Program-made: the position numbers and the translations under genes
The notes under the pieces: model-generated
Database searches by the model: none
What the model was told of the DNA's origin: nothing
What the model saw: only the letters and a program-made list of their open reading frames with translations
Part shown: positions 9,203 to 25,066 of the stretch, in pieces
Numbering within the stretch: position 1 is the first letter of the stretch
Layout: each line of letters opens with the position of its first letter
Assembly (NCBI RefSeq): GCF_003432385.1
Contig: NZ_CP031841.1
Span: 2,333,579-2,397,578, forward strand
Direction of reading: 5' to 3'
DNA from: Breoghania sp. L-A4
GTDB taxonomy: Bacteria > Pseudomonadota > Alphaproteobacteria > Rhizobiales > Stappiaceae
DNA: 64,000 nucleotides

Positions 9203-10242
9203 ATGCCGTCATCCCACGACTCCGCCCCCCTGCAGACCCCGATGCTGCGTCCGTCGCTGATTTCGCCCACCGTCGACTTCGACCGCGACGGCCTGCAGCA
9301 TGGACTATTGCGCCTGCCGTATTCCCGCGATGATTCCGCCTGGGGGTCCGTGATGATTCCGGTTTGCGTCATCAAGAATGGCTCCGGCCCGGTGGCGCTG
9401 CTGTCGGGCGGCAACCACGGAGACGAATACGAGGGCCGCTGGCACTCTACGATCTGGCGGCGAAGCTGAAGCCGGAGGAGGTGAACGGCACGGTGATCAT
9501 CGTCCCTGCGATGAATTATCCCGCTTTTCAGCTCGGCACGCGCACCTCGCCGGTCGACAAGGGCAACATGAACCGGTTGTTCCCGGGCAAGCCCGACGGC
9601 ACGGTGACGGAAAAGATCGCCGACTATTTCCAGCGTCACCTGTTGCCGATGGCCGATATCGTGCTCGATTTCCACTCCGGCGGCCGCACGCTCGATTTCC
9701 TGCCCTTCTGCGCGGCTCATGTGCTCGAGGACAAGGAGCTGGAAGCCCGCGCGATGGCGGCGGTCGAGGCGTTTTCCGCGCCCTATTCGGCGCGCATGCT
9801 GGAGATCGACGCGATCGGCATGTACGACACGGCGGCGGAGGAACAGGGCAAGGTGTTTGTCACCACGGAACTGGGCGGCGGCGGCACGGCGCGCGCCGCA
9901 ACGGTGCGCATCGCGCGGCTCGGGGTCATGAATGTGCTCAAGCACGCCGGCATCGTCGCCGGTCCCGTTCAGAGCAAGCCGACGCGCTGGCTCGACATGC
10001 CGTCCGTCGACTGCTTCTCGTTTTCCGAAGACGAGGGCCTCTACGAGACGATGGTCGATCTTGGCGAGCGCGTGACCAAGGGCGACGTCATCGCCCGCGT
10101 ACATTCGATCACCCGCACCGGACGCCCGTCACATGACATTCGCGCCAAACTTTCCGGCGTGCTGGCGGCGCGGCATTTCCCGGGCCTGATCAAATCCGGC
10201 GACTGCGCCTCTGTCGTGGCGGTATTCTCGGACGAGATGTAA
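9203..10242 (+). CDS. eutE: EutE/DoeB, N-acetyl-diaminobutyrate deacetylase (frameshifted in this sequence)
   Basis: A zinc deacetylase of the succinylglutamate desuccinylase/aspartoacylase family; restoring one base gives about 346 residues. The first frame carries the zinc motif GGNHGDEYEG and then loses sense, while homology resumes in the next frame at PLALYDLAAKLKPEE. The break is at 9433-9437 (GAGGGCCGCTG), where one G or C appears to be missing. DFHSGGRTLDFLPF is a further conserved site. The enzyme removes acetate to give 2,4-diaminobutyrate. Because both halves are intact, a sequencing error is likelier than a dead gene. The downstream aminotransferase and dehydrogenase genes of the pathway are not in this window. 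Confidence 0.85.
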
Positions 10243-10246
10243 GCTC

Positions 10247-10813
10247 TCAGGACGGCGTCGCCCGGCTTTCTGCCAGGTCGTTCCAGACGCGCTGCTCCGT
10301 GAGCTTGCCCCCATCGGTGGTGAATCGGTCGATGAAGCGGATGCCGGAGAAGGCTGTGCCGTCCGGCCACTCGCCGGACAGCGTTCCGAAGCAATAGACG
10401 ACCATGCCGGTCTCACCGAAGCATTCGTCGAAGCCCTGATAGGTCTTCGTCACGAAGCGATAACGCTGCGCGCCCCACGCCACGAGCTCCTCAAGCGTCG
10501 TGAACACCGCGCCGCCGGGAAACGTCATGCGGAACCCGTCGGCGAGACAGTCTCTTGCCGCATCGAGATCCCGGGCCTGCATCGCGCGGAGAAAGTCCCG
10601 TACCAGGTCCGTGGCGCCGGGCAGGGGCGGCCCCGGCGTCCGCGAGACGCGGCCGCGCATGTAGCTTGTGGGTTTCACCTCCTCGATCGCAACGGTAATG
10701 CCGTCGAGCGGCGCCGCGATGGTGGCGCGGACGGCATCCGTCAGGCGGGTTGCGAGCGTCCGTCTTGTTTCGTCGTCATATCCCTCGATCAGCGTCATGC
10801 GGATGACCGGCAT
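10247..10813 (-). CDS. 4-oxalocrotonate tautomerase domain fused to a SnoaL/NTF2-like domain
   Basis: A 188-residue protein with two domains. Residues 1-62 resemble a 4-oxalocrotonate tautomerase, including the catalytic Pro immediately after Met (MPVIRMTLIEGY) and the GITVAIEEV strand. Residues about 75-185 resemble a SnoaL/NTF2-like domain (DLVRDFLRAMQARDLDAARD). A strong AAGGAGG site precedes the ATG, which faces the GntR gene across 95 bp. Tautomerases isomerise enol/keto or unsaturated acids; NTF2-like domains bind or modify small molecules. The position suggests a part in the neighbouring catabolic pathway. The substrate is unknown and this fusion is not one I recognise. Confidence 0.75.
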   Translation of the reverse strand: MPVIRMTLIEGYDDETRRTLATRLTDAVRATIAAPLDGITVAIEEVKPTSYMRGRVSRTPGPPLPGATDLVRDFLRAMQARDLDAARDCLADGFRMTFPGGAVFTTLEELVAWGAQRYRFVTKTYQGFDECFGETGMVVYCFGTLSGEWPDGTAFSGIRFIDRFTTDGGKLTEQRVWNDLAESRATPS

Positions 10814-10853: not shown

Positions 10854-10882
10854 TTGACATAATGGTATAAGGATATACCATT
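10854..10882. promoter_or_regulatory. Promoter and candidate GntR operator in the divergent gap
   Basis: A perfect inverted repeat, AATGGTATA-AGGA-TATACCATT (10861-10882), lies 27 bp before the GntR-family ATG. A TTGACA box (10854-10859) starts just upstream, and TACCAT (10876-10881, 16-bp spacing) could serve as the -10, placing the palindrome between the two. GGTATA...TATACC resembles the symmetric sites of the HutC branch of GntR regulators. It could control both divergent genes. Confidence 0.55.
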
Positions 10883-10908
10883 AGATCCGCAAACAGCGAG
10901 AACATGCG

Positions 10909-11763
10909 ATGGCCGGTGCGGACCCCAACGACGCGAACACCACGGACGGCACGGCCGGCTGGCCCTACGGGCGTCTCGACGCCAACACCCGCGTGCCGCT
11001 GTATCACCAGATTTTCCTGATCCTCCGCAACCGCATCTACGGCGGCGACCTGATCGCTGGGTGTCTTGTTCCCGGCGAGCAGGATCTGGCCGCCGAATTC
11101 CGGGTCTCGCGGATCACCGCCAAGCGCGCGCTCAACGAGCTCGCCGACGCTGGTCTCGTGGTGCGCGAACGCGGCCGCGGCACGCGGGTCATCAAGCGCC
11201 CCCCGGCGCCCGCCGTCACCTCGTCGATCGAGGGCTGGCTTGAAAATATCTCGCTCATGGGAATCTCGACGACGGCGCGTGTCCTGGCTTTCGGCTATGT
11301 CGCGGCCAGTGAGGACATCGCCCATGCGCTGGACATCGAGCCTGGCACCGAGGTGCAGCACGCGGTGCGCGTGCGCAGCCTCGATGGCGAACCGATGTCC
11401 TATCTCGTGACCTACGTGCCGGCTGAAATCGGCAGCCAGTTTGATCGCGACGATCTCGACGCCCAGCCGCTTCTGCACCTGCTTGAGATGGCCGGCGTCG
11501 ATGTCGCCTCCGCGCGCCAGACGATCTCGGCGACCGTCGCGGATCCGGAGGTCGCCAGCGCGCTGTCGATGCCCGCCGGCGGGCCGCTGATCGAGGTCAG
11601 GCGCGTTGTGTGTGACGGGTCGGAGAGACCTGTCGAGTATCTCCGGGTGCTGTATCGCCCGGATGTCTACCGCTTTGAAATGTCGATGCGCCGAGTGCGC
11701 GAACAAGAAGGCATGCGGTGGGCAACCTTGAAGTCATCGCCGGTCCCCGCCGGTGATGGATAA
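10909..11763 (+). CDS. GntR-family regulator, HutC/UTRA type
   Basis: A 284-residue regulator: a GntR winged helix at about residues 25-95 (PLYHQIFLILRNRIYGGDL; FRVSRITAKRALNELADAGL) followed by a UTRA ligand-binding domain to the C-terminus. UTRA domains bind small metabolites, often the pathway substrate or product. It stands at the head of a long gene row running to 25066 and faces a perfect palindrome, so it probably represses or activates that cluster in response to the substrate. The ligand cannot be predicted. Confidence 0.88.
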   Translation: MAGADPNDANTTDGTAGWPYGRLDANTRVPLYHQIFLILRNRIYGGDLIAGCLVPGEQDLAAEFRVSRITAKRALNELADAGLVVRERGRGTRVIKRPPAPAVTSSIEGWLENISLMGISTTARVLAFGYVAASEDIAHALDIEPGTEVQHAVRVRSLDGEPMSYLVTYVPAEIGSQFDRDDLDAQPLLHLLEMAGVDVASARQTISATVADPEVASALSMPAGGPLIEVRRVVCDGSERPVEYLRVLYRPDVYRFEMSMRRVREQEGMRWATLKSSPVPAGDG

Positions 11764-11820: not shown

Positions 11821-13053
11821 ATGACCGATACCACAGGGGCGGGCGGAATGCGCCGCCGCGACTTCCTCGCAACCAGTGCCGCCGCTCTCGGCGTCGGCCT
11901 CACCGGCTTTCCGGCCGTCCTGCGTGCGCAGGCCGCTCCGGTGAAGATAGGCCTGATCCATCCGGTGTCCGGCTTTATCGCCTTTTCCGGCAGCCAGTGC
12001 CGCGAAGGCGCGATGATGGCGATTGCCGACATCAATGCGGCCGGCGGCATCAAGTCGCTCGGTGGAGCCAGGATCGAGGCGATGCTCGCCGACAGCCAGG
12101 GCAAGCCGGATATCGGCGCGGCCGAGGTGACCAAGATGGCTGAAGCGGGTGTCACGGGCATTGTCGCCGGCTATTCCTCCGCGATCTCGCTGGCGACCTC
12201 GCAGGAAGCGGCCAAGACCAACACGCCGCATGTGGTTGATGTCGGCGTTTCCGACAAAATCGTGCAGCGCGGGCTGTCCAATACGTTCCGCTTCGGTCCG
12301 GGCTATGGCGTGATCGCCAAATTCGCCGTCGACAATCTGGCCGCGATCAACGCCATGACCGATACGCCGGCGAAGACGGCGATGATCATCCATGAGGAAT
12401 CGCTGTTCGGCACGGGCACCGCGGGTCTGTTGCAGAAGGAACTGCCGGGCAAGGGGATCGAGGTCGTCGATGTCATCAAGCACGCCAACCCGACGCGCGA
12501 CTTCACCAACATCGTGCTGCAGATCAAGGCCAAGAAGCCGGATCTGATCATCCCGGCGAACTATTACAACGAATATGTGCTGCTTGCCCGCACGCTGCGC
12601 CAGCAGCGCGTCGAGGCCAAGGGCATCTATTCGGTGCTCGGTGGCGCCGCGTCGAACTACAAGTTCGTGCACGAGTTCCCCGAAGCCGCCGAATACATCA
12701 TGGACTGCAACCACTGGTTCAATCCGAAATCGGACGTGGCGCAGGCGCGCAAGGCGGCGGCGGAAGCCAAGGGCCTGATCTACACCTATGAGGTGTTCCT
12801 CGCCTACAACGCCGTCGTGGCGCTGGCCGACGCCATCGAACGTGCGGGCTCGACCGACTCCGAAGCGGTGAACGCGGCGCTGGCGTCCTCCACCCTGGAC
12901 ATGTCCTACATGCCCTATGGTCCGACCAGTATGATCGACGGTCAGAATGTCGGCGCCCAGCCGGTCAACACCCAGGTGCTGAACGGCGACATCGAGGTGA
13001 TCTTCCCGCAGGCCTACGCCTCGGCGAAGCCCGTCTTCCCGATGCCGTCCTGA
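11821..13053 (+). CDS. Liv-type ABC transporter substrate-binding protein (Tat signal)
   Basis: A 410-residue family 6 periplasmic binding protein (amide/urea/branched-chain type), with a twin-arginine signal in the first 38 residues (MRRRDFLATSAAALG). The mature part begins PVKIGLIHPVSGFIAFSG, typical of FmdD/UrtA/LivK relatives. It is the first gene after the regulator and is followed by two permeases and two ATPases. Relatives bind amides, urea or carboxylates, which suits a nitrogen-containing ring compound, but the ligand is unknown. Confidence 0.85.
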   Translation: MTDTTGAGGMRRRDFLATSAAALGVGLTGFPAVLRAQAAPVKIGLIHPVSGFIAFSGSQCREGAMMAIADINAAGGIKSLGGARIEAMLADSQGKPDIGAAEVTKMAEAGVTGIVAGYSSAISLATSQEAAKTNTPHVVDVGVSDKIVQRGLSNTFRFGPGYGVIAKFAVDNLAAINAMTDTPAKTAMIIHEESLFGTGTAGLLQKELPGKGIEVVDVIKHANPTRDFTNIVLQIKAKKPDLIIPANYYNEYVLLARTLRQQRVEAKGIYSVLGGAASNYKFVHEFPEAAEYIMDCNHWFNPKSDVAQARKAAAEAKGLIYTYEVFLAYNAVVALADAIERAGSTDSEAVNAALASSTLDMSYMPYGPTSMIDGQNVGAQPVNTQVLNGDIEVIFPQAYASAKPVFPMPS

Positions 13054-13111: not shown

Positions 13112-13984
13112 ATGATCGAGCTTTCAATTCTCATTCCGTCGGTGCTCAACGGGCTCACAACCGGTGCGCTCTACGCGCTGGTGGCGCTCGGCTTGACGCT
13201 GATCTACGGCGTGCTGCACATCATCAATTTCGCGCATGGCGCGTTGCTGATGGTGGGTCTCTACGCGGTCTATTATCTCAACGTGCAGTTCGGCATCGAT
13301 CCATACGTCGCCCTGCTGATCGTGCCGCCGGGCATGTTCATTCTCGGCTACGCCTTGCAGCGCGGCATCATCAGCCGCGCCAGCCACGGCCGCGACGAGA
13401 ACATCCTTCTGGTGACCCTCGGGCTGGCGATCATCATCGAGAACCTGTCGCTGTTCGTGTTCAAGTCGGACACGCGGGTGGTCGACACGCCGTATTCCTT
13501 CGAGGTCGTCGAGCTTTTCGGCGCCTTCCTGCCGCTGCCCAAGGTCTTCGCCTTCATCGGCGCCTTCGTCACCGCAGCCCTGCTGTGGCTGCTGATGTCA
13601 AAGACCGACCTTGGCCGCGCCATCCGCGCGCTCGCCAAGGAGCGCAAGGGCGCGCAACTGGTCGGCATCGACACGAACCACGTCTTCGCCATGAGCTTCG
13701 GACTTGGCGTGGCCTGTCTTGGCGTCGCCGCCTGCCTGCTTCTGCCCAGCTACTACGTCAATCCGCAGGTGGGCACGGGCTTCGTTCTCATCGCCTTCAC
13801 CATCGTGGTCCTCGGCGGCATGGGCTCGTTCGTCGGCGCCTTGATTGGCGGCTTGATCATCGGTGTCGTCGAGGCGCTGGGCGGGCTGTTTCTCGGCGAA
13901 AGTCTCGGTCAGATCGGCATCTTCGTCATCTTCATCGGGGTGCTGATTTTCCGGCCGACCGGCCTGCTCGGTCACAAGGTATGA
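13112..13984 (+). CDS. Branched-chain/amide ABC transporter permease, LivH type
   Basis: A 290-residue integral membrane protein of the LivH/UrtB family, with the conserved start (SVLNGLTTGALYALVALGLT) and the segment LIYGVLHIINFAHGALLMVG. It pairs with the LivM-type protein whose start overlaps its stop (ATGA). It forms half of the channel for the compound bound by the preceding protein. Confidence 0.88.
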   Translation: MIELSILIPSVLNGLTTGALYALVALGLTLIYGVLHIINFAHGALLMVGLYAVYYLNVQFGIDPYVALLIVPPGMFILGYALQRGIISRASHGRDENILLVTLGLAIIIENLSLFVFKSDTRVVDTPYSFEVVELFGAFLPLPKVFAFIGAFVTAALLWLLMSKTDLGRAIRALAKERKGAQLVGIDTNHVFAMSFGLGVACLGVAACLLLPSYYVNPQVGTGFVLIAFTIVVLGGMGSFVGALIGGLIIGVVEALGGLFLGESLGQIGIFVIFIGVLIFRPTGLLGHKV

Positions 13985-14973
13985 CCTCCATGCGCCAACT
14001 TGCCATTCTCGCCCTGGTCTTCGCGCTGATCGGCACAGTGCCTTTCGCCATCACGACGGATTCCTGGCTCAACATCGTCATCATGACGCTCTACGCGGCA
14101 CTGCTCGGCCAGGCGTGGAACATGCTCGGTGGCTACGGCGGCCAGTTTTCCTTCGGCCACGCGGCGTATTTCGGCACCGGCGCCTATACGGTCGCGGTGC
14201 TGCAGGTTCAGCTCGGGGTCAATCCCTGGATCGGGCTCGCGGCCGGCGGCGCCATGGCCATGCTGGTCGCCGCGATCATCGGCTTCTCGACCTTCCGCTA
14301 TGGGCTGCGCGGCTCCTATTTCGCCCTGGTGACGCTGGCGTTTGCCGAGGTGCTGCGCATCCTGTCCAATTCGCTGGACTTCACGGGCGCGGGCGTCGGC
14401 ATCCTCATCCCGCTGGATGTGGGGGCGGCCAACCTGCAGTTCGCGAGCAAGCACGGATTCTTCTGGCTGATCTGGGCCATGACGCTGGCCGCCTGTCTCA
14501 CCGTATGGTGGATCGGCAATTCGCGCTTCGGCGCCCAGCTCATGGCGGTGCGCGACAACGAGGACGCGGCCCGCGCGCTCGGCGTCAACGCGTTCCGGGT
14601 CAAGATGGGCGCGATCGTGCTCTCCGGCCTGTTCGCCGGTCTCGCCGGCGTCTTTTACGCGCAGTATTTCCTCTATCTCGATCCGCACATCGCCTATGGC
14701 GCCGCCGTGTCGATCGAAAGCCTCCTGGTGCCGATCGTCGGCGGCATCGGAACGCTGTTCGGCCCGCTGCTGGGCGCCGCCGCCTTGCATGCGCTTTCGG
14801 AAGTGACGCGCTGGATCATCGGCGACGTGCCGGGCATATCGCTGGTGCTCTATGGCGTGCTGCTGGTCTGCATGGTGCTGTTCATGCCGCGCGGCTTCGC
14901 CGGTCTGATCGGCAAGCTTCAGCGCAAGCCGCGCGACAAATCCGCCGCCCGACCGGAGCCGCGCCATGCTTGA
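13981..14973 (+). CDS. Branched-chain/amide ABC transporter permease, LivM type
   Basis: A 330-residue LivM/UrtC-family permease. The signature segment NMLGGYGGQFSFGHAAYFGT is near residues 42-61, followed by multiple hydrophobic helices. The ATG at 13981 overlaps the previous stop; the ATG at 13990 is possible. Its stop overlaps the next ATPase gene by eight bases, confirming one operon. Confidence 0.88.
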   Translation: MTSMRQLAILALVFALIGTVPFAITTDSWLNIVIMTLYAALLGQAWNMLGGYGGQFSFGHAAYFGTGAYTVAVLQVQLGVNPWIGLAAGGAMAMLVAAIIGFSTFRYGLRGSYFALVTLAFAEVLRILSNSLDFTGAGVGILIPLDVGAANLQFASKHGFFWLIWAMTLAACLTVWWIGNSRFGAQLMAVRDNEDAARALGVNAFRVKMGAIVLSGLFAGLAGVFYAQYFLYLDPHIAYGAAVSIESLLVPIVGGIGTLFGPLLGAAALHALSEVTRWIIGDVPGISLVLYGVLLVCMVLFMPRGFAGLIGKLQRKPRDKSAARPEPRHA

Positions 14974-15704
14974 GGTTCGCGACATCTGCAAGTCGTTTGG
15001 CGGCGTTCACGCCTCCAGCCATGTGACGCTGAGCGTGCCGGAGGGCAGGATCACGTCGCTGATCGGCCCAAACGGCGCGGGGAAGACGACGCTGTTCGCC
15101 CTGATCACCGGATTTCACAAGCCCGACGCGGGCTCCGTCAGTTTTCTGGGTGAGGACATCACGGGCATGGCGCCGGACGCCATCGCGCGCCGCGGCATGA
15201 TCCGGACGTTCCAGATTGTCCAGCCCTTCGCGGGCCAGAGCGTGCGCGAGAACATCGCGGTGGGCGCGCATCTGCGCATCAAGTCACGCCGTGACGCGCT
15301 CGCAAAGGCGGAAGCCGTGGCGCGCCAGGTGGGGCTTGGCGACCGGCTCGAGATGGACGCCGCCTCGCTGACGGTGGCCGGACGCAAGCGACTGGAGGTG
15401 GCCCGGGCGCTGGCGACGGACCCGAAGCTGATCCTCTTCGATGAAGTGCTGGCCGGGCTGAACCCGTCCGAAATCCGCGATGTGATCCCGGTGATCCAGG
15501 CGATCCGCGAGGCGGGCGTCACCATCGTGCTGATCGAGCACGTGATGCAGGCGGTGATGAGCCTGTCGGAACACACCTGGGTGCTGAACCAGGGCGAACT
15601 GATCGCCGAAGGCGCGCCGCGTGACGTGGTCAGCGACCCGCGGGTCATCGAGGCCTATCTGGGCAAGGGCATGGCGGCGCGGATCGCGGCGCGGGAGGCA
15701 GCCG

Positions 15705-15712
<8 letters not shown>
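14966..15712 (+). CDS. ABC transporter ATPase, LivG type
   Basis: A 248-residue ATPase. Walker A is at residues 33-41 (GPNGAGKTT) and Walker B is LILFDEVLAGLNPSE. The usual LSGGQ signature is replaced by LTVAGRKRLEVARALA, as is common in LivG/UrtD proteins. It energises the LivHM-type importer with the following LivF. It overlaps both neighbours. Confidence 0.86.
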
Positions 15713-16403
<691 letters not shown>

Positions 16404-16407
<4 letters not shown>

Positions 16408-17693
16408 TGACGTCCCCACAGACACTGGCGCAGAAGATCATTGCCCGCGCGGCGGGGCGCGACACCGTGGTCCCCGGTGAGGTCGTGACAGCGCGCGTGG
16501 ATCTCGCGATGATCCATGATTCCGGCGGCCCGCGCCGCGTCGAGCCGATCCTCAAGGATCTCGGCGTCGGCCTGTTCGACGCGGACAAGGTCGTGCTGAT
16601 CTCGGATCACTTCGTGCCCGGCGACACCGACGAGGGCGCGCGCATTCTCGAACTCACCCGCCAGTGGGCGCGCGAGCGCAAGGTTACTTTTCATGACGGT
16701 GAAGGCATCTGTCACGTGGTCCTGCCCGAGCGGGGACATCTGAAACCCGGCATGTTCGTCGTGGGCGGCGACAGCCACTCACCGACGGGCGGGGCGTTCG
16801 GCACCTACATGTTCGGCGTCGGCGCCACCGAGATGGCGGGCGTGCTGGCCACCGGCGAGATCTGGCTGACGGTCCCCGAAACCATCCTGCTGGAATGGCA
16901 GGGCCACCTGCAGCCCGGCGTCACCGCCAAGGACATGATGCTGGCGCTGTGCGGCCGTCTCGGCATGGACGGCGGCCAATATCAGGCCGTGGAATATGCG
17001 GGTGAGGCGATCGCGGCGCTGTCGATGCAGGAGCGCATGACGCTGTCGAACATGGCGGCCGAGCTTGGCGCCCAGGCTGGACTGATCGCACCGGATGAGA
17101 CCACCGCCGACTATCTCGAGGATGTGGGCGGTGACGCGGGCGACTGGCGGGCGCTTCGCACCGATCCCGGCGCCGATCTGCTGGCGCATCATGTCTTCGA
17201 TGCAACGGCGCTCGAGCCGCAGGTGGCGGCTCCGCATTCCCCGGCCAATGCCGCGTCGATCTCGGATGCGCCGGCCACGCCCATCGACGTGGCTTACATC
17301 GGCGCCTGCACCGGCGCGAAATACGAGGATCTGAAGCGCGCCGCCGGCATCCTGCGCGGACGGACGCTGGCGCCCTCCGTCGAACTGATGGTCGCGCCCG
17401 CCACGCGGCGGGATCAGGATCGTGCCGCGGCGGAGGGCATCATGGCGGTCTTCGAGGAGGCAGGCGCGCGGATCCTGCCCAATGCCTGCGGCATCTGCGC
17501 GGGCTACGGCACCGACCGGCTCGGCGAGAACGTCACCTGCATTTCCTCGACAGCCCGCAACTTCAAGGGCCGGATGGGGGCTGCGTCGTCCCAGGTCTGG
17601 CTGGGGTCGCCTTTGACGGTCGCGGCCTCGGCCATCACCGGGCGGATCAGCGACCCGCGCGACTTTCTCACCGGCAAGGAGGAGGGCGCATGA
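16404..17693 (+). CDS. Aconitase-family dehydratase, large subunit (LeuC/DmdA-like)
   Basis: A 429-residue Fe-S dehydratase large subunit. GDSHS is at residues 122-126 and the three predicted cluster cysteines are C302 (IGACTGAKYEDL), C362 and C365 (NACGICAGYG). The next gene encodes the matching small subunit. Such pairs reversibly hydrate unsaturated di- or tricarboxylates: isopropylmalate, citraconate, maleate or dimethylmaleate. Because a KRCGH-type lyase follows rather than leucine genes, a catabolic hydratase such as 2,3-dimethylmalate dehydratase (DmdA) or a maleate-type hydratase is more likely than LeuC. Substrate unproven. Confidence 0.82.
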
Positions 17694-18196
17694 GCGGGCG
17701 CGTGTTCGTGTTTGGCGATGACATCGACACCGACCAGCTTGCTCCGGGCCAGTACATGAAGGGCGGGCTCGACATGCTCGCCGCGCATTGTCTGGAAGGA
17801 CCGCGGCCCGATTTCGCGTCCACGGTGCGGCCGGGCGATGTGGTCGTGGCCGGCAGGAACTTCGGCATGGGCTCGTCGCGCGAACAGGCGGCGGAAGCCT
17901 TGAAACACCTCGGCGTCGCCGGCGTCGTCGCGCGATCCTTTGCCGGCATCTTCTACCGCAACGCCATTAATCTCGGCCTGCCCGTCCTCGTCGCAAAGGA
18001 TCTCGATGCCGTTCATGACGGCGATGTGGCCGAATTCGATGTCGAGGGCGGCGAACTGCGGCTGGTGAATACAAACCGGACGGTGCGGCTCGAGCCGTTG
18101 CCCGACAATCTCAAGCGAATGCTCGCCGACGGCGGCCTGGTGCCGCATCTGAAGAAGCGCTTTGCGGCAGAGCGCGACAAGGAAACAAGCACATGA
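17690..18196 (+). CDS. Aconitase-family dehydratase, small subunit (LeuD/DmdB-like)
   Basis: A 168-residue swivel-domain subunit with the hallmarks GDDIDTDQLAPG (residues 9-20), NFGMGSSREQAA and FYRNAINLGLP. It completes the active site of the preceding large subunit. It overlaps both neighbours by four bases. Small subunits set much of the substrate preference, but the specificity residues cannot be read confidently here. Confidence 0.85.
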   Translation: MSGRVFVFGDDIDTDQLAPGQYMKGGLDMLAAHCLEGPRPDFASTVRPGDVVVAGRNFGMGSSREQAAEALKHLGVAGVVARSFAGIFYRNAINLGLPVLVAKDLDAVHDGDVAEFDVEGGELRLVNTNRTVRLEPLPDNLKRMLADGGLVPHLKKRFAAERDKETST

Positions 18197-19062
18197 GCTT
18201 GAAGCAAAGACTGGGAGAAGAGCGGATTCTGCTCGCGCCCGGCGTCTATGATTCACTGACCGGGCTGATCGCGGAGCAGGCGGGCGCGGAAGCCGTCTAT
18301 CTCTCCGGCGCCTCCATCGCCTACACCCGTTTCGGCCGGTCCGATATCGGTCTGGTGTCGATGAGCGAGGTCGCCGACACGATCGCCGTGCTGCGCGACC
18401 GCATCGCGCTCCCGATCGTCGTCGATGCCGACAACGGCTTCGGCAACGCGCTCAACGTCCAGCGCACCGTGCGCGTGTTCGAGCGCATGGGCGCCAACGC
18501 GCTGCAGCTTGAAGACCAGACGATGCCCAAGCGCTGCGGCCATCTCGACGGCAAGTCGGTGGTCCCGGTCTCGGAGATGGCGGGAAAGATCCGCGCGGCG
18601 TGTGACGCGCGCGCTTCCGAGGACACGCTGATCATCGGCCGCACCGACGCCATCGCCGTGGAAGGCTTCGAGGCGGCGGTCGACCGCGCCGAGGCCTATC
18701 TGGAGGCCGGCGCCGACATGCTGTTCATCGAGGCGCCGCAGTCGATGGAGCAGATCGAACAGATCCTGGCGCGCTTCAAGGGCCGCGTGCCGCTGATGGC
18801 CAACATGGTCGAGGGCGGCAAGACCCCGATCGTCAATGCGGCCGGGCTGGAGGCGCTCGGCTTCAGCTTCGTGATCTTTCCCGGCGGCATCGTGCGCGCC
18901 ATCGCCGCAACCGCGCGCGACTATTACGCCAATCTGGTCGCCACGGGATCCAACGAGGCCTTCCGCAACCGCATGTTCGACTTCACGGGGCTGAATGACG
19001 TGATCGGCACACCGGACCTGCTCGCCCAGGGCAAGCGCTATGACGGGGAGGGAGGGCAATGA
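18193..19062 (+). CDS. Isocitrate-lyase/PEP-mutase-family C-C lyase (dimethylmalate- or methylisocitrate-lyase-like)
   Basis: A 289-residue TIM-barrel protein. DADNGFGN (78-85) supplies metal ligands, and KRCGH (113-117) with catalytic Cys115 marks a C-C bond lyase rather than a phosphonomutase. Family members cleave methylisocitrate, isocitrate, oxaloacetate or 2,3-dimethylmalate to a 2-oxoacid plus a second acid. Directly after a dehydratase pair, it probably cleaves the 2-hydroxy diacid that pair makes; 2,3-dimethylmalate to pyruvate and propionate is the best-known precedent. Substrate inferred from context. Confidence 0.83.
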   Translation: MSLKQRLGEERILLAPGVYDSLTGLIAEQAGAEAVYLSGASIAYTRFGRSDIGLVSMSEVADTIAVLRDRIALPIVVDADNGFGNALNVQRTVRVFERMGANALQLEDQTMPKRCGHLDGKSVVPVSEMAGKIRAACDARASEDTLIIGRTDAIAVEGFEAAVDRAEAYLEAGADMLFIEAPQSMEQIEQILARFKGRVPLMANMVEGGKTPIVNAAGLEALGFSFVIFPGGIVRAIAATARDYYANLVATGSNEAFRNRMFDFTGLNDVIGTPDLLAQGKRYDGEGGQ

Positions 19063-20795
19063 GCATCGATCCGGTTACCCTCGCCATTCTCAAGGGCCGC
19101 CTGGAGCAGGTCGCCGACGAGATGGATGCGACGCTGTTCCGCTCCGCCTTCAACCCGATCATCGCCGAAGCCCACGACGCCTCGCACGGCATCTATGATG
19201 CGACGACGGGCGACACGCTTGTGCAGGGCAAGTCCGGCCTGCCGATCTTCGTCGGCGTCATGGCGTTTGCCGTCAAGGCGGTGATCGACAAGGCCGCAAA
19301 ACAGGGCGGCGTCAACGAAGGCGACGTCTGGATCTTCAACGATCCCTATGACGGCGGCACCCATCTGTCGGATTTCCGGCTGGTCAAGCCGGTGTTCCGC
19401 GACGGCGCGGTGTTCTGCTATCTCGCGTCTGTCGGCCATTGGCACGACGTGGGCGGCAACGTGCCGGGCAACTACAACCCCGCCGCGACCGAGTGCTTTC
19501 AGGAAGGCATGCTGATCCCGCCGGTCAAGCTCTATGACCGCGGCGAATTCCGCCAGGACATCGTGGACATTCTGTCGGCCAACTCGCGTCTGCCGCTGTC
19601 TCTCTACGGCGATCTCAACGGCCAGATCAATGCACTGGAGCTGGGCGAGAAGCGCATGAACGCGCTGCTCGATGAATATGGCGATGCGACGGTGGGCGAC
19701 TGCCTGGTCGAGCTGAAGGCGCGTGCGGCCGCCATGATGCGCGCCCAGATCTCCGGGCTGCCGTCCGGCACCGTATCGGCCGAGGATTTCCTCGACAACG
19801 ACGGCATCAATGACGTGCCGCTGAAGATCGCGCTGGACCTGACCATCGACGGCGACCGCATGGTGATGGATTTCTCGCGCTCGTCCCCGGCCTGCGCCGG
19901 TCCGGTCAACATCTCCCGCGCCACCACCATCGCCGCCTGTTACGTGGCGCTGAAGCACATCTTCGGCGACGTGCCCGCCAATGCGGGCGTGCTTGAGCCC
20001 GTCGAGTTCCGCATCGATCCGGACTCGCTGTTGTCGGTCAAGGCGCCCAAGCCCGTCGGCGGCTACACCGAGACCATCCTGCGGCTCATCGATGTGGTGT
20101 TCCAGGCGGTGGCGCAGATCGCGCCGAAAGAAGCCATGGCCTGCGCCTACGGCACCATCAACGCGCTGTCGCTCGCCGGCCACCGCGCGAACGGCCAGCG
20201 CTGGGTGATGTTCTCCTTCTTCGGCGGCGGCCACGGCGCGCATGGCGCCGGCGACGGCCTCAACCACGGCAACGCGCCCATTTCCACCGCGACGATCCCG
20301 CCGCTGGAAATCCTTGAATCCGCCTATCCGGTGCGGTTCACACAGTGGGCGTTGCGTCCGGATTCAGGCGGCGCCGGCGAATATCGTGGCGGGCTCGGCG
20401 CGGTCTACGAGATCGAGCTGCTGGAGAAACACGCCGACGTCTTCCTGTTCGGCGAGCGCGGCAAGTTCCCGCCGCGCGGTGTGGTCGGCGGCGGTGCGGC
20501 CGCGCTCAACACCTTCCATTATGAGCAGGCGGACGGGAGCCACACGCCGCCGATGGTCTCCAAGATCGTCGGCATCCACATCGATCGCGGCCAGGCGCTG
20601 CGGCTGGAGACCCCGGGCGGCGGCGGCTACGGCCAGGCGTTCGCCCGCGACCCGGCCAGCGTCGCCCGCGATGCTCGTCTCGGTTTCATCAGCCGCGCCT
20701 GCGCCGAGGCCGACTATGGCGTCGTGCTGCGCATGGACGGCACCGTGGACGATGCCGCCACCACAAGCCTGCGCGCCCAGGAGGCGGCTCAATGA
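19059..20795 (+). CDS. hyuB: Hydantoinase B/oxoprolinase family protein
   Basis: A 578-residue HyuB-family subunit. It begins with the typical DPVTLAILKGRLEQVADEMD and carries NDPYDGGTHLSDF near residue 91 and, towards the C-terminus, PGGGGYG. It forms an ATP-dependent amidohydrolase with the HyuA protein encoded next; relatives open 5-oxoproline, hydantoins, N-methylhydantoin or caprolactam. It overlaps the lyase gene and hyuA by four bases each, tying ring opening to the dehydratase-lyase module. Confidence 0.88.
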   Translation: MSIDPVTLAILKGRLEQVADEMDATLFRSAFNPIIAEAHDASHGIYDATTGDTLVQGKSGLPIFVGVMAFAVKAVIDKAAKQGGVNEGDVWIFNDPYDGGTHLSDFRLVKPVFRDGAVFCYLASVGHWHDVGGNVPGNYNPAATECFQEGMLIPPVKLYDRGEFRQDIVDILSANSRLPLSLYGDLNGQINALELGEKRMNALLDEYGDATVGDCLVELKARAAAMMRAQISGLPSGTVSAEDFLDNDGINDVPLKIALDLTIDGDRMVMDFSRSSPACAGPVNISRATTIAACYVALKHIFGDVPANAGVLEPVEFRIDPDSLLSVKAPKPVGGYTETILRLIDVVFQAVAQIAPKEAMACAYGTINALSLAGHRANGQRWVMFSFFGGGHGAHGAGDGLNHGNAPISTATIPPLEILESAYPVRFTQWALRPDSGGAGEYRGGLGAVYEIELLEKHADVFLFGERGKFPPRGVVGGGAAALNTFHYEQADGSHTPPMVSKIVGIHIDRGQALRLETPGGGGYGQAFARDPASVARDARLGFISRACAEADYGVVLRMDGTVDDAATTSLRAQEAAQ

Positions 20796-22843
20796 CAAAA
20801 CCTGCATATGTGATCGGCGTCGACGTCGGTGGCACCTTCACCGACGTGTTCATTCTGGATGAAACTACGGGCACGGTCGTCACCGCGAAAGTGCCGTCGA
20901 CCCGCGGCGACCAGTCGAAGGGCTTTGTCGAGGGCATCGCCCAGAAAGTCGCCGATTTCGCCGATATCAGGACCGTGGTGCATGGCACCACCGTGGGCAC
21001 CAACGCCTTGCTGGAGCGCAAGGGTGCGCGCACCGGCATCATCACCACGGAAGGCTTTCGCGACGTGCTCGAGATGCGCCGCCGCGATCGGCCGACCACC
21101 TGGGGGCTGAAGGGCTCGTTCACGCCCGTGGTCGAGCGGCCCGATCGCGTCGAGGTCGGCGAACGCATCCTGGCTGACGGCTCTGTGCTGCGCGTGGTCG
21201 ACGAGGCGGAGGTGAAATCCCGCGCGCTTGACTTGGCCGAGGCCGGGTGCGAAGCGGTTTGCGTGTTCTTCATCAATGGCTACGCCAACAACGACAACGA
21301 GGCGCGCGCCGTGGAGGCGGTGCGCTCCGTCTGGCCCAACGCCTACGTGACTGCCGCCACCGAGATCCTTCCCGAAATCCGTGAATTTGAGCGCCTGTCG
21401 ACCGCGACGCTGAACGCCTATCTGCAGCCCGTGGTCTCCTCCTATCTTGACCGGCTGGAAAAAGGCCTGGCCGCGCGCGGTTTCACAGGCGACATCCTGA
21501 TCGTTCAGTCCAACGGCGGCGTTATGTCCATCGACACCGCCAAGCGCTATCCGGTGCGCACGGCGCTTTCGGGACCGGCCGCCGGCGTCATCGCCGCCAC
21601 CGCCATAGCCAAGGCCGCCGGTTTCGAGAACATCATCACCTGCGACATGGGCGGAACGTCGTTCGACGTGTCGCTCGTGGCGGGCGGCGAGGCGGCGCTG
21701 GCCGCGCAGACGTCGATCGATTTCGGCATGGTCGTGCGCACGCCGATGATCGAGATCACGACGATCGGCGCGGGCGGCGGATCCATCGCCCATGTCGACA
21801 AGAGCGGCCTGCTGCAGGTCGGCCCCGAATCCGCCGGTTCCGATCCCGGTCCCGTCTGCTACGGGCTCGGCAACGACCGTCCGACCGTCACCGACGCCAA
21901 CGTGGTGCTGGGCCGTATCAACGCCGACAGGCCGATCGGCGGCAAGCTGGACCGCCTCGACGTCGAGGCGGCGCGCACGGCCATCGAAACGCATATTGCC
22001 ACGCCCCTGGGTCTGACGGTCGAGGCCGCGGCCGAAGCGATCCTGAAGCTCGCCAACGCCAAGATGGCCGGCGCCATCCGTCTCGTTTCCATTGAAAAGG
22101 GTCATGATCCGGCGAAATTCTCCGCCATGCCGTTCGGCGGCGGCGGCGCGCTGCACACCGGCGCCTTGATCAAGGAAGTCGGGTTGGCTTCCGCGCTGGT
22201 TCCCCGCTTTCCGGGCGTCACCTCCGCCCTGGGCTGCGTGGTTGCCGACATGCGCCACGACCGGGTGCAGACGGTCAACAGGCTGCTCGATCACCTCGAT
22301 GCGGCCGACCTCGGCACCGAGATGATGCGCGTCGCCGACGAAACCGGCGCTCTGCTTGACGGCGCGGGCGTCGCCTTCGCCGCCGTGGACCGGGTTTTCG
22401 AACTCGACATGCTGTATCTGGGCCAGACCCATACGGTGAACGTGGCGCTTGCCATGCCGGTGGACGGGCTGACCACCGCGGCGATCCGGTCCGCCTTCGA
22501 GGCGGCCTATCACGAGACCTACGGACGGCTGCTCGACGGCATTCCGATGCGCGTGATGAACTACCGCATCGCTGTGATCGGCCGCCGGCCTGGGCTCGAC
22601 ATGGCCGTCTTCGCGCCCGTTGGCGGCAAACCGGCCGATGCCTGCCGCACGGGCACGCGCCGTGTCTTCAGCGACGGCGCATGGCACGACGCCGGAATCT
22701 TCGAGCGGCTGCAGCTTGAGGTCGGCGCCACGATCAGCGGACCGGCCCTGTTGGAGCAGGCCGACACGACGATCTTTGTTGATCCGGGGCTTGGAGCGCG
22801 CGTGGACGCCTATGGCAATCTTGTCATCACGCCGGTGGGGTAG
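20792..22843 (+). CDS. hyuA: Hydantoinase A/oxoprolinase family protein (ATPase subunit)
   Basis: A 683-residue HyuA-family subunit with an actin-like ATPase fold. The phosphate-binding motif is VDVGGTFTD (residues 10-18), followed by HGTTVGTNALLERKGA and CDMGGTSFDVSLV. With HyuB it hydrolyses cyclic amide or imide bonds using ATP to activate the carbonyl. Downstream is a palindromic repeat and then an amidase-type gene, the same pairing as N-methylhydantoinase with N-carbamoylsarcosine amidase in creatinine breakdown. The actual substrate may be different. Confidence 0.88.
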   Translation: MTKPAYVIGVDVGGTFTDVFILDETTGTVVTAKVPSTRGDQSKGFVEGIAQKVADFADIRTVVHGTTVGTNALLERKGARTGIITTEGFRDVLEMRRRDRPTTWGLKGSFTPVVERPDRVEVGERILADGSVLRVVDEAEVKSRALDLAEAGCEAVCVFFINGYANNDNEARAVEAVRSVWPNAYVTAATEILPEIREFERLSTATLNAYLQPVVSSYLDRLEKGLAARGFTGDILIVQSNGGVMSIDTAKRYPVRTALSGPAAGVIAATAIAKAAGFENIITCDMGGTSFDVSLVAGGEAALAAQTSIDFGMVVRTPMIEITTIGAGGGSIAHVDKSGLLQVGPESAGSDPGPVCYGLGNDRPTVTDANVVLGRINADRPIGGKLDRLDVEAARTAIETHIATPLGLTVEAAAEAILKLANAKMAGAIRLVSIEKGHDPAKFSAMPFGGGGALHTGALIKEVGLASALVPRFPGVTSALGCVVADMRHDRVQTVNRLLDHLDAADLGTEMMRVADETGALLDGAGVAFAAVDRVFELDMLYLGQTHTVNVALAMPVDGLTTAAIRSAFEAAYHETYGRLLDGIPMRVMNYRIAVIGRRPGLDMAVFAPVGGKPADACRTGTRRVFSDGAWHDAGIFERLQLEVGATISGPALLEQADTTIFVDPGLGARVDAYGNLVITPVG

Positions 22844-23044: not shown

Positions 23045-23658
23045 ATGACTGCAATCACCATCGATCCCGCCCGCACGGCCCTGCTGATCGTCGATCTGCA
23101 GAATGATTTCCTGCATCCCGACGGCGCCTATGCCCGGGGCGGTCAGAAGAATGCCGACATCGCCGCGCTTCCCGACCGCGTGCTGCCGGTCGCCGACGCG
23201 CTGCGCGCCAAGGGCGGCTGGATTGCCTCGACCCAGTTCACGCTGGTGCCGGGCAAGGGTGGCGAGCCGTTCATCTCAGCCCATCTGAAGGAACTGAGAC
23301 CGTTCCTGCGCAAGGGCGACTTTTGCCCCGGCGCCTGGGGCATCAACTGGTCGACGCGCTGCAGCCGGCGGATCTGGCGATCGAGAAGGTCGCCTATTCC
23401 GCCTTCTACATGACGCGGCTGGAATGGGTGTTGCGCAAGGCCGGCATCGACACGCTGATCATCTGCGGCATCGTCACCAACGGCGGCGTCGCCTCGACCG
23501 TGCGCGACGCGCATGTGCGCGACTTCAAGACCATCGTGCTCAGCGACGGCTGCGCCGCGTTCTCGCGCGAGACGCATGTGCGCGCCATCGGCGATCTTGC
23601 GACGGTGGCCGGCACACTGACCTGCGCCGAGGCAATCGCGATGATTTCGGGCGTCTGA
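23045..23658 (+). CDS. Isochorismatase-fold hydrolase lacking the usual cysteine (frameshifted in this sequence)
   Basis: With one base restored in the G-run at 23337-23340 this is a 204-residue isochorismatase-family protein. D17 (IVDLQNDF) and K115 (IEKVAYSAF) of the catalytic triad are present. The position normally held by the nucleophilic Cys (TNxCV) reads TNGGV, so the residue is Gly148. Cysteine-dependent relatives are N-carbamoylsarcosine amidase, maleamate amidase and RutB; true isochorismatases of the PhzD type also lack the Cys. A hydrolase acting on the HyuAB product is expected from context, but the missing nucleophile makes amidase activity uncertain. Confidence 0.75.
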
Positions 23659-23659
23659 C

Positions 23660-25066
23660 ATGGGGACGGCATCGATTTCGCATGATGCACCGGCGCGCAT
23701 TGACGTCCAGGCCGATGTGGTCGTCATAGGAGCGGGCGCCTGCGGCCTTGTCGCGGCGCTGAAGGCGCGCGCCGGCGGCGCCGAGGTCATCGTTCTGGAA
23801 CGCGACGCCTCTCCGTCGGGCTCCACCTCCATGTCGTCGGGATTTGTTCCCGCGCCCGCCACCCGCTTCCAGCGCGCCATCGGCGTCGAGGACGACACGC
23901 CGGAGCGTTTCGAGTCTGACATTCTCGCCAAGTCCAAAGGCAAGTCGGTCGCCGCGCTCGCGCGCCTCGCGAGCCGTACCATCGGCCCGGCGCTGGAATG
24001 GCTCGCGGACGCGCACGGCATCGACTGGATCGTGCTCGACGATTTTCTCTATCCCGGCCATTCGCGTCACCGCATGCACGCGGTGCCGGAGAAGACCGGC
24101 GAGGGACTGGAAGCGCGCCTTCTGGCGGCGGCCGAGGCGGCCGGCATCTCGGTGGTCACCGAGGCGCATGCCACCAGGCTGTTCGCCAGTGAAGAAGATC
24201 GTATCGATGCGGTCGAGATCAGCCGTCCCGATGGCGCGCGCGAAGTGCTGGGCTGCGGCGCATTGATTCTCGCCTGCAACGGTTTTGGCGGCGACGCGGC
24301 GCTGGTTCGCGCCCATATCCCGGAAATCGCCGGCGGGCTCTATTACGGCCACGAGGGCAACACCGGCGACGCGCTCGCGTGGGGCGAGGCGCTCGGCGCG
24401 AAGACCATGCATCTCTCCGGCTACCAGGGCCACGGCTCGCTGGCCCACCCGCACGGCATCCTGATTTCCTGGGCGCTGATGATGGAAGGCGGTATTCAGG
24501 TTAACGCCGATGGCGAGCGCTTTTCCAACGAGCACGGCGGCTATTCAGAGCAGGCGGTGAACGTGCTGGCGCAGCCGGGCGGCATCGCCTGGAACATTTT
24601 TGACGCACGGCTGCACGGCTTTGCGCAAGGCTTCCCGGACTACGCGGACGCCGTGAAGGCCGGCGCCATCCGCGAGGCTGCAGACGTGGCGGCGCTGGCC
24701 CGTGTCACCGGCCTGCCCGAAGCGGCGCTCGCAAGGACGCTTGCCGATGTCACAGCCCTTCAGGCAGGGGAGGGCGCGGATCCGTTCGGCCGCGATTTCA
24801 CCACCAAGCCGCCGCTGACGGCTCCCTATCATGCGGTCAAGGTCACGGGCGCGCTGTTTCATACCCAGGGCGGTCTGATGATCGACGAGCACGCGCGGGT
24901 GCTGGATCGGGCGGGGAGGCCGTTCCCGAACCTCTACGCGGGCGGAGGGGCCGCGTGCGGTGTCTCCGGTCCCGACGTTTCGGGTTATCTGTCGGGCAAC
25001 GGTCTGCTGAGCGCCATCGCTTTCGGATATCTGGCGGGACGCGATGCCGCAGGCGGGCCGGATTAG
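23660..25066 (+). CDS. FAD-dependent oxidoreductase, fumarate reductase/TcuA-like flavoprotein
   Basis: A 468-residue flavoprotein with an N-terminal dinucleotide-binding motif (VVVIGAGACGLVAAL, residues about 20-34) and the C-terminal FAD segment PFPNLYAGGGAACG...YLSGNGLL. The family includes fumarate reductase flavosubunits, 3-ketosteroid dehydrogenases and tricarballylate dehydrogenase (TcuA), which add or remove hydrogen across a C-C bond next to a carbonyl or carboxylate. The start lies one base after the preceding stop. In this cluster it could desaturate a succinate-like diacid before hydration by the aconitase-like enzyme; this is inference. Confidence 0.8.
   Translation: MGTASISHDAPARIDVQADVVVIGAGACGLVAALKARAGGAEVIVLERDASPSGSTSMSSGFVPAPATRFQRAIGVEDDTPERFESDILAKSKGKSVAALARLASRTIGPALEWLADAHGIDWIVLDDFLYPGHSRHRMHAVPEKTGEGLEARLLAAAEAAGISVVTEAHATRLFASEEDRIDAVEISRPDGAREVLGCGALILACNGFGGDAALVRAHIPEIAGGLYYGHEGNTGDALAWGEALGAKTMHLSGYQGHGSLAHPHGILISWALMMEGGIQVNADGERFSNEHGGYSEQAVNVLAQPGGIAWNIFDARLHGFAQGFPDYADAVKAGAIREAADVAALARVTGLPEAALARTLADVTALQAGEGADPFGRDFTTKPPLTAPYHAVKVTGALFHTQGGLMIDEHARVLDRAGRPFPNLYAGGGAACGVSGPDVSGYLSGNGLLSAIAFGYLAGRDAAGGPD

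Follow-up and report, generated by a model that had tools for sequence, protein, structure and literature searches.

The described routes nearest to the gene cluster analyzed here are the maleamate/maleate and dimethylmaleate pathways, known from NicF/NicE and from nicotinate fermentation. Their enzymes for amide removal, isomerization, hydration and C-C cleavage belong to families comparable to those of the cluster; to our knowledge, they include neither a HyuAB ring opening nor a fusion of a tautomerase with a SnoaL domain. Our literature search found no paper joining pathways of this type to such a cluster, and no paper on a 4OT-SnoaL fusion or on a HyuAB-LeuCD-lyase cluster.

The portion of PMC11641302 that concerns canonical 4-oxalocrotonate tautomerase (4-OT) gives its active site as P1 with R11, R39 and F50. 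The 4-OT family and the fusion studied here are alike in the Tautomerase Pfam domain and the N-terminal proline, whereas the fusion has Tyr for R11, Thr for R39 and Tyr for F50, and carries an extra C-terminal SnoaL domain. For MgaD, a protein of the SnoaL type, the authors of PMC12314914 propose a tautomerase role in syringate catabolism. The folds of TerC, limonene epoxide hydrolase and ketosteroid isomerase resemble that of fusion residues 65-187 at ~10-20% identity. The best solved relative is the protein of PDB entries 9MUA and 9MUP, released 2025-04-09 and titled '4OT-SnoaL from P. atlanticus', apo and 3-bromopropiolate treated, respectively. Compared by titles and sequence, it has the same domain order as the fusion, with Pro, Tyr12, Tyr51 and Arg53 common to both, and no architectural difference was seen.

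The fusion gene lies in a 64,000-nucleotide stretch of the Breoghania sp. L-A4 genome, hereafter the window, to which all coordinates refer unless a locus (L) or contig (C) is given.

Domains and conserved residues of the fusion protein

The gene (10247-10813, minus strand) encodes a 188-residue protein beginning MPVIRMTLIEGY, and its reading frame is intact, unlike three broken frames among the genes nearby. Pfam places a Tautomerase domain (PF01361; 35.2 bits against a gathering cut-off of 22) at residues 2-54 (10652-10810, minus strand), with Pro2 as the mature Pro1, and a SnoaL/NTF2-like domain (PF12680, SnoaL_2; 36.9 bits against 27) at residues 71-173 (10295-10603, minus strand). Both lie above their cut-offs, as expected for the two-domain fusion described in the earlier note. 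With regard to the maleate isomerization raised in the earlier note, the protein gives no Pfam match of the Asp/Glu-racemase type, the fold of maleate isomerase, up to E 0.01. The protein is collinear with 9MUA, its residues 2-184 aligning to 1-183 (E 2.4e-59) at ~53% identity in a structure-guided alignment. Because 9MUA/9MUP aligns across nearly its full length, the fusion is, as judged by sequence, a member of the already known 4OT-SnoaL architecture, and that architecture is not new. The earlier note had called the fusion unusual, a view that is not supported: a relative has already been crystallized, and the fusion is common in the window's family (40/87 genomes).

An AlphaFold2 model built from three sequences (mean pLDDT 67.1) resolves an NTF2-type fold at residues 65-187, which matches 9mua with Z 20.7 and r.m.s.d. 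1.7 over 123 residues, and TerC with Z ~16. Residues 1-60, however, have a pLDDT of only 33-57, leaving the tautomerase half without a usable fold, and the whole-length match to 9mua covers 187 columns with TM 0.61 and r.m.s.d. 13. Of the two domains, structure prediction therefore bears out the SnoaL domain alone, and two folded domains are expected because of the homologous crystal structure, known here from the sequence match and the entry titles.

Residue conservation was assessed in an alignment of 58 full-length rows (the window, 9MUA and 56 relatives, many being closely related) and three short forms, with open reading frames picked by profile. The fusion residues aligned to 4-OT P1, R11, R39 and F50 are Pro, Tyr, Thr and Tyr. 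Position 11 is Tyr in 58/58 full-length rows, as is position 50, and position 39 is Thr in 54, Ile in two and Ser in two. Pro2, Gly11, Tyr12, Ala34, Glu45, Tyr51 and Arg53 are invariant in all 58 full-length rows and all three short forms, so the proline noted directly after Met is a constant feature of the relatives aligned. None of the NCBIfam 4-OT models scores above its cut-off for the fusion, the best reaching 35.1 bits against 55. Thus, the domain is 4-OT-like in its Pfam assignment and N-terminal proline, but the residues at R11 and R39 (Tyr and mostly Thr) rule out a plain 4-OT.

The SnoaL half has its own invariant set, R117, Y118, K123, R159, D162, W177, N178 and D179 (window numbering), found in 58/58 full-length rows, with W149 kept in 57/58. 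The eight invariant residues are also kept in 7/7 genes that encode a SnoaL domain only (a tandem gene excepted) and in no fewer than 24/27 rows of stand-alone paralogues. In the three short forms (L076, L077 and L136) the tautomerase residues are all present, whereas Y118, W149, N178 and D179 are lost, a loss on which two alignments agree; R117 is Arg in one alignment and Ala/Met in another, the alignment of the short forms being uncertain.

Gene cluster and shared control region

Divergent from the fusion is a gene for a GntR/UTRA (HutC-type) regulator with Pfam GntR and UTRA domains (10909-11763, plus strand), followed on the same strand by the remainder of the cluster. A LivK-like substrate-binding protein (Peripla_BP_6; 11821-13053) precedes LivH-, LivM-, LivG- and LivF-like permeases and ATPases (13112-16407). 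Next come LeuC-like (16404-17693) and LeuD-like (17690-18196) dehydratase subunits, supported by NCBIfam PRK00402 above cut-off and by Pfam Aconitase and Aconitase_C, and a protein of the PrpB/isocitrate-lyase/PEP-mutase superfamily (18193-19062). The latter is assigned by Pfam and PDB relatives, which include methylisocitrate lyase and dimethylmalate lyase, with carboxyvinyl-carboxyphosphonate phosphorylmutase as the top match; it scores 281.7 bits with the prpB model, below the cut-off of 354.4. HyuB (hydantoinase B/oxoprolinase; 19059-20795; Pfam, 561.7 bits) and HyuA (hydantoinase A/oxoprolinase; 20792-22843; Pfam) both fall below the caprolactamase cut-off, so that none of the three, lyase, HyuA or HyuB, reaches the curated cut-off of a named function. 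Successive genes from leuC through hyuA overlap by 4 bases. The set further comprises an isochorismatase-family amidohydrolase (23045-23652), whose first part matches Pfam Isochorismatase and whose solved relatives include RutB, biuret hydrolase and a carbamoylsarcosine-amidase relative, and an FAD-dependent oxidoreductase of the fumarate-reductase/flavocytochrome c type (23660-25066), assigned by family searches.

Three frames in the neighborhood are broken. The amidase gene breaks near 23.3 kb, and the protein of a relative matches over both frames; livF (15705-16404) breaks near 15740 and 15845 and matches relatives in three frames; doeB (9203-10242), of the convergent ectoine (eut/doe) cluster, seems split into open reading frames at 9203-9469 and 9364-10242 when these are compared with the model match. 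These breaks may reflect sequencing or assembly error, or decay.

Between the fusion and gntR lies a perfect 24-bp operator-like palindrome, TAATGGTATA-AGGA-TATACCATTA (10860-10883), which overlaps a promoter-like TTGACA-16-TACCAT directed at gntR. It is the sole match in the window at up to three mismatches, with none in 100 shuffles. Across the 5.03-Mb genome the core pattern matches exactly once, and two other places match at three mismatches, as many as a reversed-pattern control yields. In relatives, 20/20 loci with a Liv-type transporter (window included) match the operator pattern at 0-3 mismatches, and 23/25 loci with a TRAP transporter match TGTATT-N6-AATACA at 0-2 mismatches (L073 and L075 do not), with both patterns derived from the same loci and shuffled controls that preserve base content alone; the test covered these two types of locus, to the exclusion of L076, L077 and the class-wide loci. 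The natural reading of the sequence is that the palindrome is a putative operator of a local, self-controlled divergon of gntR and the fusion, in agreement with the palindromic control region earlier proposed to be common to both.

Linkage and one-half variants in relatives

In a first set of 46 loci, comprising 39 other genomes of the window's family, two named genomes and five plasmids, the fusion adjoins members of the cluster in every case. Among 13 further fusion loci from across the class, 11 lie beside cluster genes; the exceptions are L129 and L135, and in the genome of the latter (G421) the cluster is found on another contig (L163). The recurring set consists of a GntR regulator, a Liv-type ABC or TRAP transporter, a LeuCD-like or MmgE/PrpD dehydratase, a PrpB-like lyase, HyuAB, an isochorismatase-type amidase and an FAD enzyme. 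It occurs in two main layouts and a third type. The Liv-type layout is that of the window, with fusion and divergent gntR, livKHMGF, leuCD-like genes, PrpB-like lyase, hyuBA, amidase and FAD oxidoreductase. In the TRAP-type layout, fusion-hyuB-hyuA-amidase-lyase-FAD run in one direction and gntR-leuCD-TRAP in the other; on three annotated Sulfitobacter plasmids, this run opens with the fusion, which overlaps hyuB by 4 bases. In the third, seen in Tistrella and Neorhizobium, MmgE/PrpD replaces LeuCD and two racemase-type genes are present; hyuAB was not found in the Tistrella stretch. The stretch of L144 has two PuuE-like genes and no HyuAB.

Genome counts were made with HyuB at E <= 1e-180 as the marker for the cluster; they come from related genomes and are not statistically independent. 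In the window's family of 87 genomes, 42 have HyuB and 40 the fusion, with 40 in common (Fisher p 9e-23, ignoring kinship). The class and phylum searches for the fusion scored the best eight first-look candidates per genome and the class search for HyuB the best three, so the genome counts of fusion and HyuB are lower bounds. Of 385 genomes sampled from the class, at least 28 have HyuB and at least 14 the fusion, with 11 in common (Fisher p 1e-11, ignoring kinship); the fusion genomes G093, G270 and G445 have no HyuB at E <= 1e-180 among the best three candidates per genome. That the fusion tracks the HyuAB-dehydratase cluster, as proposed earlier, is thus upheld in one direction, since HyuB is present in 40/40 fusion genomes of the family and 11/14 of the class. 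The reverse is weak in the class, where 11/28 HyuB genomes have the fusion and 17/28 lack it among the best candidates scored. Most cluster genes are present in L150, L151, L155-L157, L160 and L161, with no fusion or SnoaL gene in the stretch, so the cluster does not strictly need the fusion. The fusion is therefore an accessory of the cluster, being absent, reduced to a SnoaL-only gene or carrying a shortened SnoaL half in some clusters.

The full-length fusion is not rare in the window's family and is scarcer in its class, where two of the 14 or more are the short Tistrella-type form. A sample of 398 genomes from the phylum holds at least two with the full-length fusion (G000 and G776), both of the window's class. 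Confinement to the window's family is ruled out by the class sample and by Zhengella, Mesorhizobium and the Sulfitobacter plasmids.

In L138, L140 and L144, a SnoaL-only gene occupies the divergent place beside gntR, and the stretch has no tautomerase. A separate tautomerase gene could serve such genomes, and this was rejected: no Pfam tautomerase is found genome-wide at E <= 0.001 in G280, G373 and G151, and the one in G826 is unlinked. The tautomerase half is thus dispensable. A stand-alone SnoaL paralogue, sharing 44% identity across residues 67-182, is encoded elsewhere in the window's own genome (C1:3910826). In a tree of 76 SnoaL domains, built after 20 rows had been removed as near-identical or redundant, along with one fragment, and weak in its inner branches, 22/23 stand-alone paralogues form one clade (SH-aLRT 99). 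The SnoaL-only forms of the cluster fall among the fusions, and L141 groups with the fusion of L129 (SH-aLRT 99). The tree suggests that the tautomerase half was lost or gained repeatedly, in either direction.

Several other arrangements were observed. A second context places an isochorismatase-type gene beside a SnoaL-only gene (L141:9013-12950) or a fusion (L129:9755-11770); L129 adds an SDR gene, and L141 adds PuuE-like and CitE/RipC-like genes. In L155, whose cluster also has HyuAB, the FAD gene is directly followed by a polysaccharide-deacetylase-family gene (L155:14935-15846) that looks PuuE-like by eye. One 294-codon open reading frame (L146:9480-10361) holds two SnoaL domains of the fusion's family in tandem, with a PrpB-like lyase gene ~0.5 kb away. 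In L145, L147, L149 and L171, stand-alone SnoaL paralogues lie near other Liv-type or branched-chain-type ABC transporter genes. Asp/Glu/hydantoin-racemase-type genes occur in 4/91 loci (L076, L077, L136 and L151), from ~three genera, and all four either lack the fusion or carry it with a shortened SnoaL half; we treat this as a lead and do not count it as evidence, and L172, where an Asp/Glu racemase gene lies close to a stand-alone SnoaL paralogue that is intact, speaks against it.

Proposed pathway and alternatives

Our best explanation as a whole, to which we give a little less than an even chance, is that the fusion is a two-domain isomerase dedicated to one GntR-controlled catabolic pathway. 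Its parts differ in strength. Dedication to the pathway of the cluster is very probable, and cyclic-amide catabolism as the nature of that pathway is about an even call, an imide being a somewhat unlikely form of it and a hydantoin a distinctly unlikely one. The gap between the two ratings was narrowed on account of the racemase-type genes, whose family also covers hydantoin racemases. That the fusion isomerizes a tautomeric, double-bond or geometric form of an unsaturated intermediate is possible, at a confidence well short of even.

In the proposed sequence of steps, the substrate would enter via the Liv or TRAP transporter and HyuAB (PuuE-type enzymes in one variant) would open the cyclic amide ring of an imide or hydantoin. 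The isochorismatase-type enzyme would take off the remaining amide or carbamoyl nitrogen, and the FAD enzyme would set or remove a C=C bond. LeuCD, or MmgE/PrpD in the variant, would then hydrate an unsaturated di- or tricarboxylate, and the PrpB-like lyase would cleave the hydrated product, yielding a 2-oxo acid along with a carboxylic acid. The fusion would convert an isomeric form of the unsaturated intermediate to the one usable by the next enzyme, presumably with Pro1 as the base and Tyr11, Tyr50 and Arg52 (mature numbering) replacing R11/R39/F50 of 4-OT, and with R117, Y118, K123, W149, R159, D162, W177, N178 and D179 as the set of the SnoaL half. Because some clusters lack the gene or one of its halves, this step probably proceeds slowly without the enzyme or is met by another isomerase.

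An imide route could explain all the steps, because LeuCD and the lyase could use a substituted maleate. One specific form of it, which we consider very unlikely, would be an undescribed aerobic route for substituted cyclic imides such as 3-methyl-4-alkylmaleimides from the breakdown of tetrapyrroles (chlorophyll, haem, bilin). HyuAB opening and amide removal would be followed by hydration of 2-methyl-3-alkylmaleate and its cleavage to pyruvate and a carboxylate, and the fusion would act as an alkyl(idene)maleate or maleamate isomerase whose single chain combines two active sites of unrelated kinds.

In the hydantoin alternative, HyuAB would open a 5-alkyl(idene) hydantoin, the carbamoylsarcosinase/RutB-like enzyme would remove the carbamoyl group, and the tautomerase half would turn the enamine (a dehydroamino acid) into an imine that loses ammonia. 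Hydantoin-ring hydrolases are found in both the HyuAB and the PuuE families, the amidase has RutB and the carbamoylsarcosine-amidase relative among its solved relatives, and the extra racemase genes of the Tistrella variant belong to the Pfam Asp/Glu/Hydantoin racemase family. Taken alone, however, this route leaves the LeuCD/PrpD dehydratase and the PrpB-like lyase unexplained, as both want a hydroxy di- or tricarboxylate. By gene content, it would account more readily for ring opening, amide removal and the racemase-type genes than for the hydration and lyase steps, and we regard it as unlikely.

The substitution of the fusion by SnoaL-only genes in L138, L140 and L144, together with the three out of four SnoaL-only genomes tested that are without any Pfam tautomerase, could also mean that the SnoaL half is the sole catalyst in most members and the tautomerase half mainly an oligomer scaffold or relic. 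This appears quite unlikely, as Pro2, Tyr12, Tyr51 and Arg53 are invariant in 61/61 rows, including those of the three short forms, in which SnoaL residues are missing. 3-Bromopropiolate is a Pro1-directed reagent. It appears in the title of 9MUP ('3-bromopropiolate treated'), which also argues against this reading.

Membership of the fusion gene in the convergent ectoine cluster is extremely improbable: it ends 4 bases from doeB, and genes resembling doeA and doeB also lie near the fusion in L133, but eut/doe matches occur beside the fusion in the window and L133 alone (0/46 loci of the first set and 1/13 further fusion loci), and its promoter region is common to gntR.

A dedicated isomerase within the GntR-controlled pathway remains our preferred reading. 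What is new here is the genomic context of the fusion in a locally controlled, probably cyclic-amide catabolic cluster, together with the variants in which one half is missing or shortened. A crystallized fusion type, for which we found no pathway placement in the literature, is now given a concrete gene cluster, one that occurs in many alphaproteobacteria. The cluster offers a regulator with a single-site putative operator and natural variants in which one half is missing or shortened, making both the division of labor between tautomerase and SnoaL halves and the substrate of the HyuAB-LeuCD-lyase cluster directly testable.
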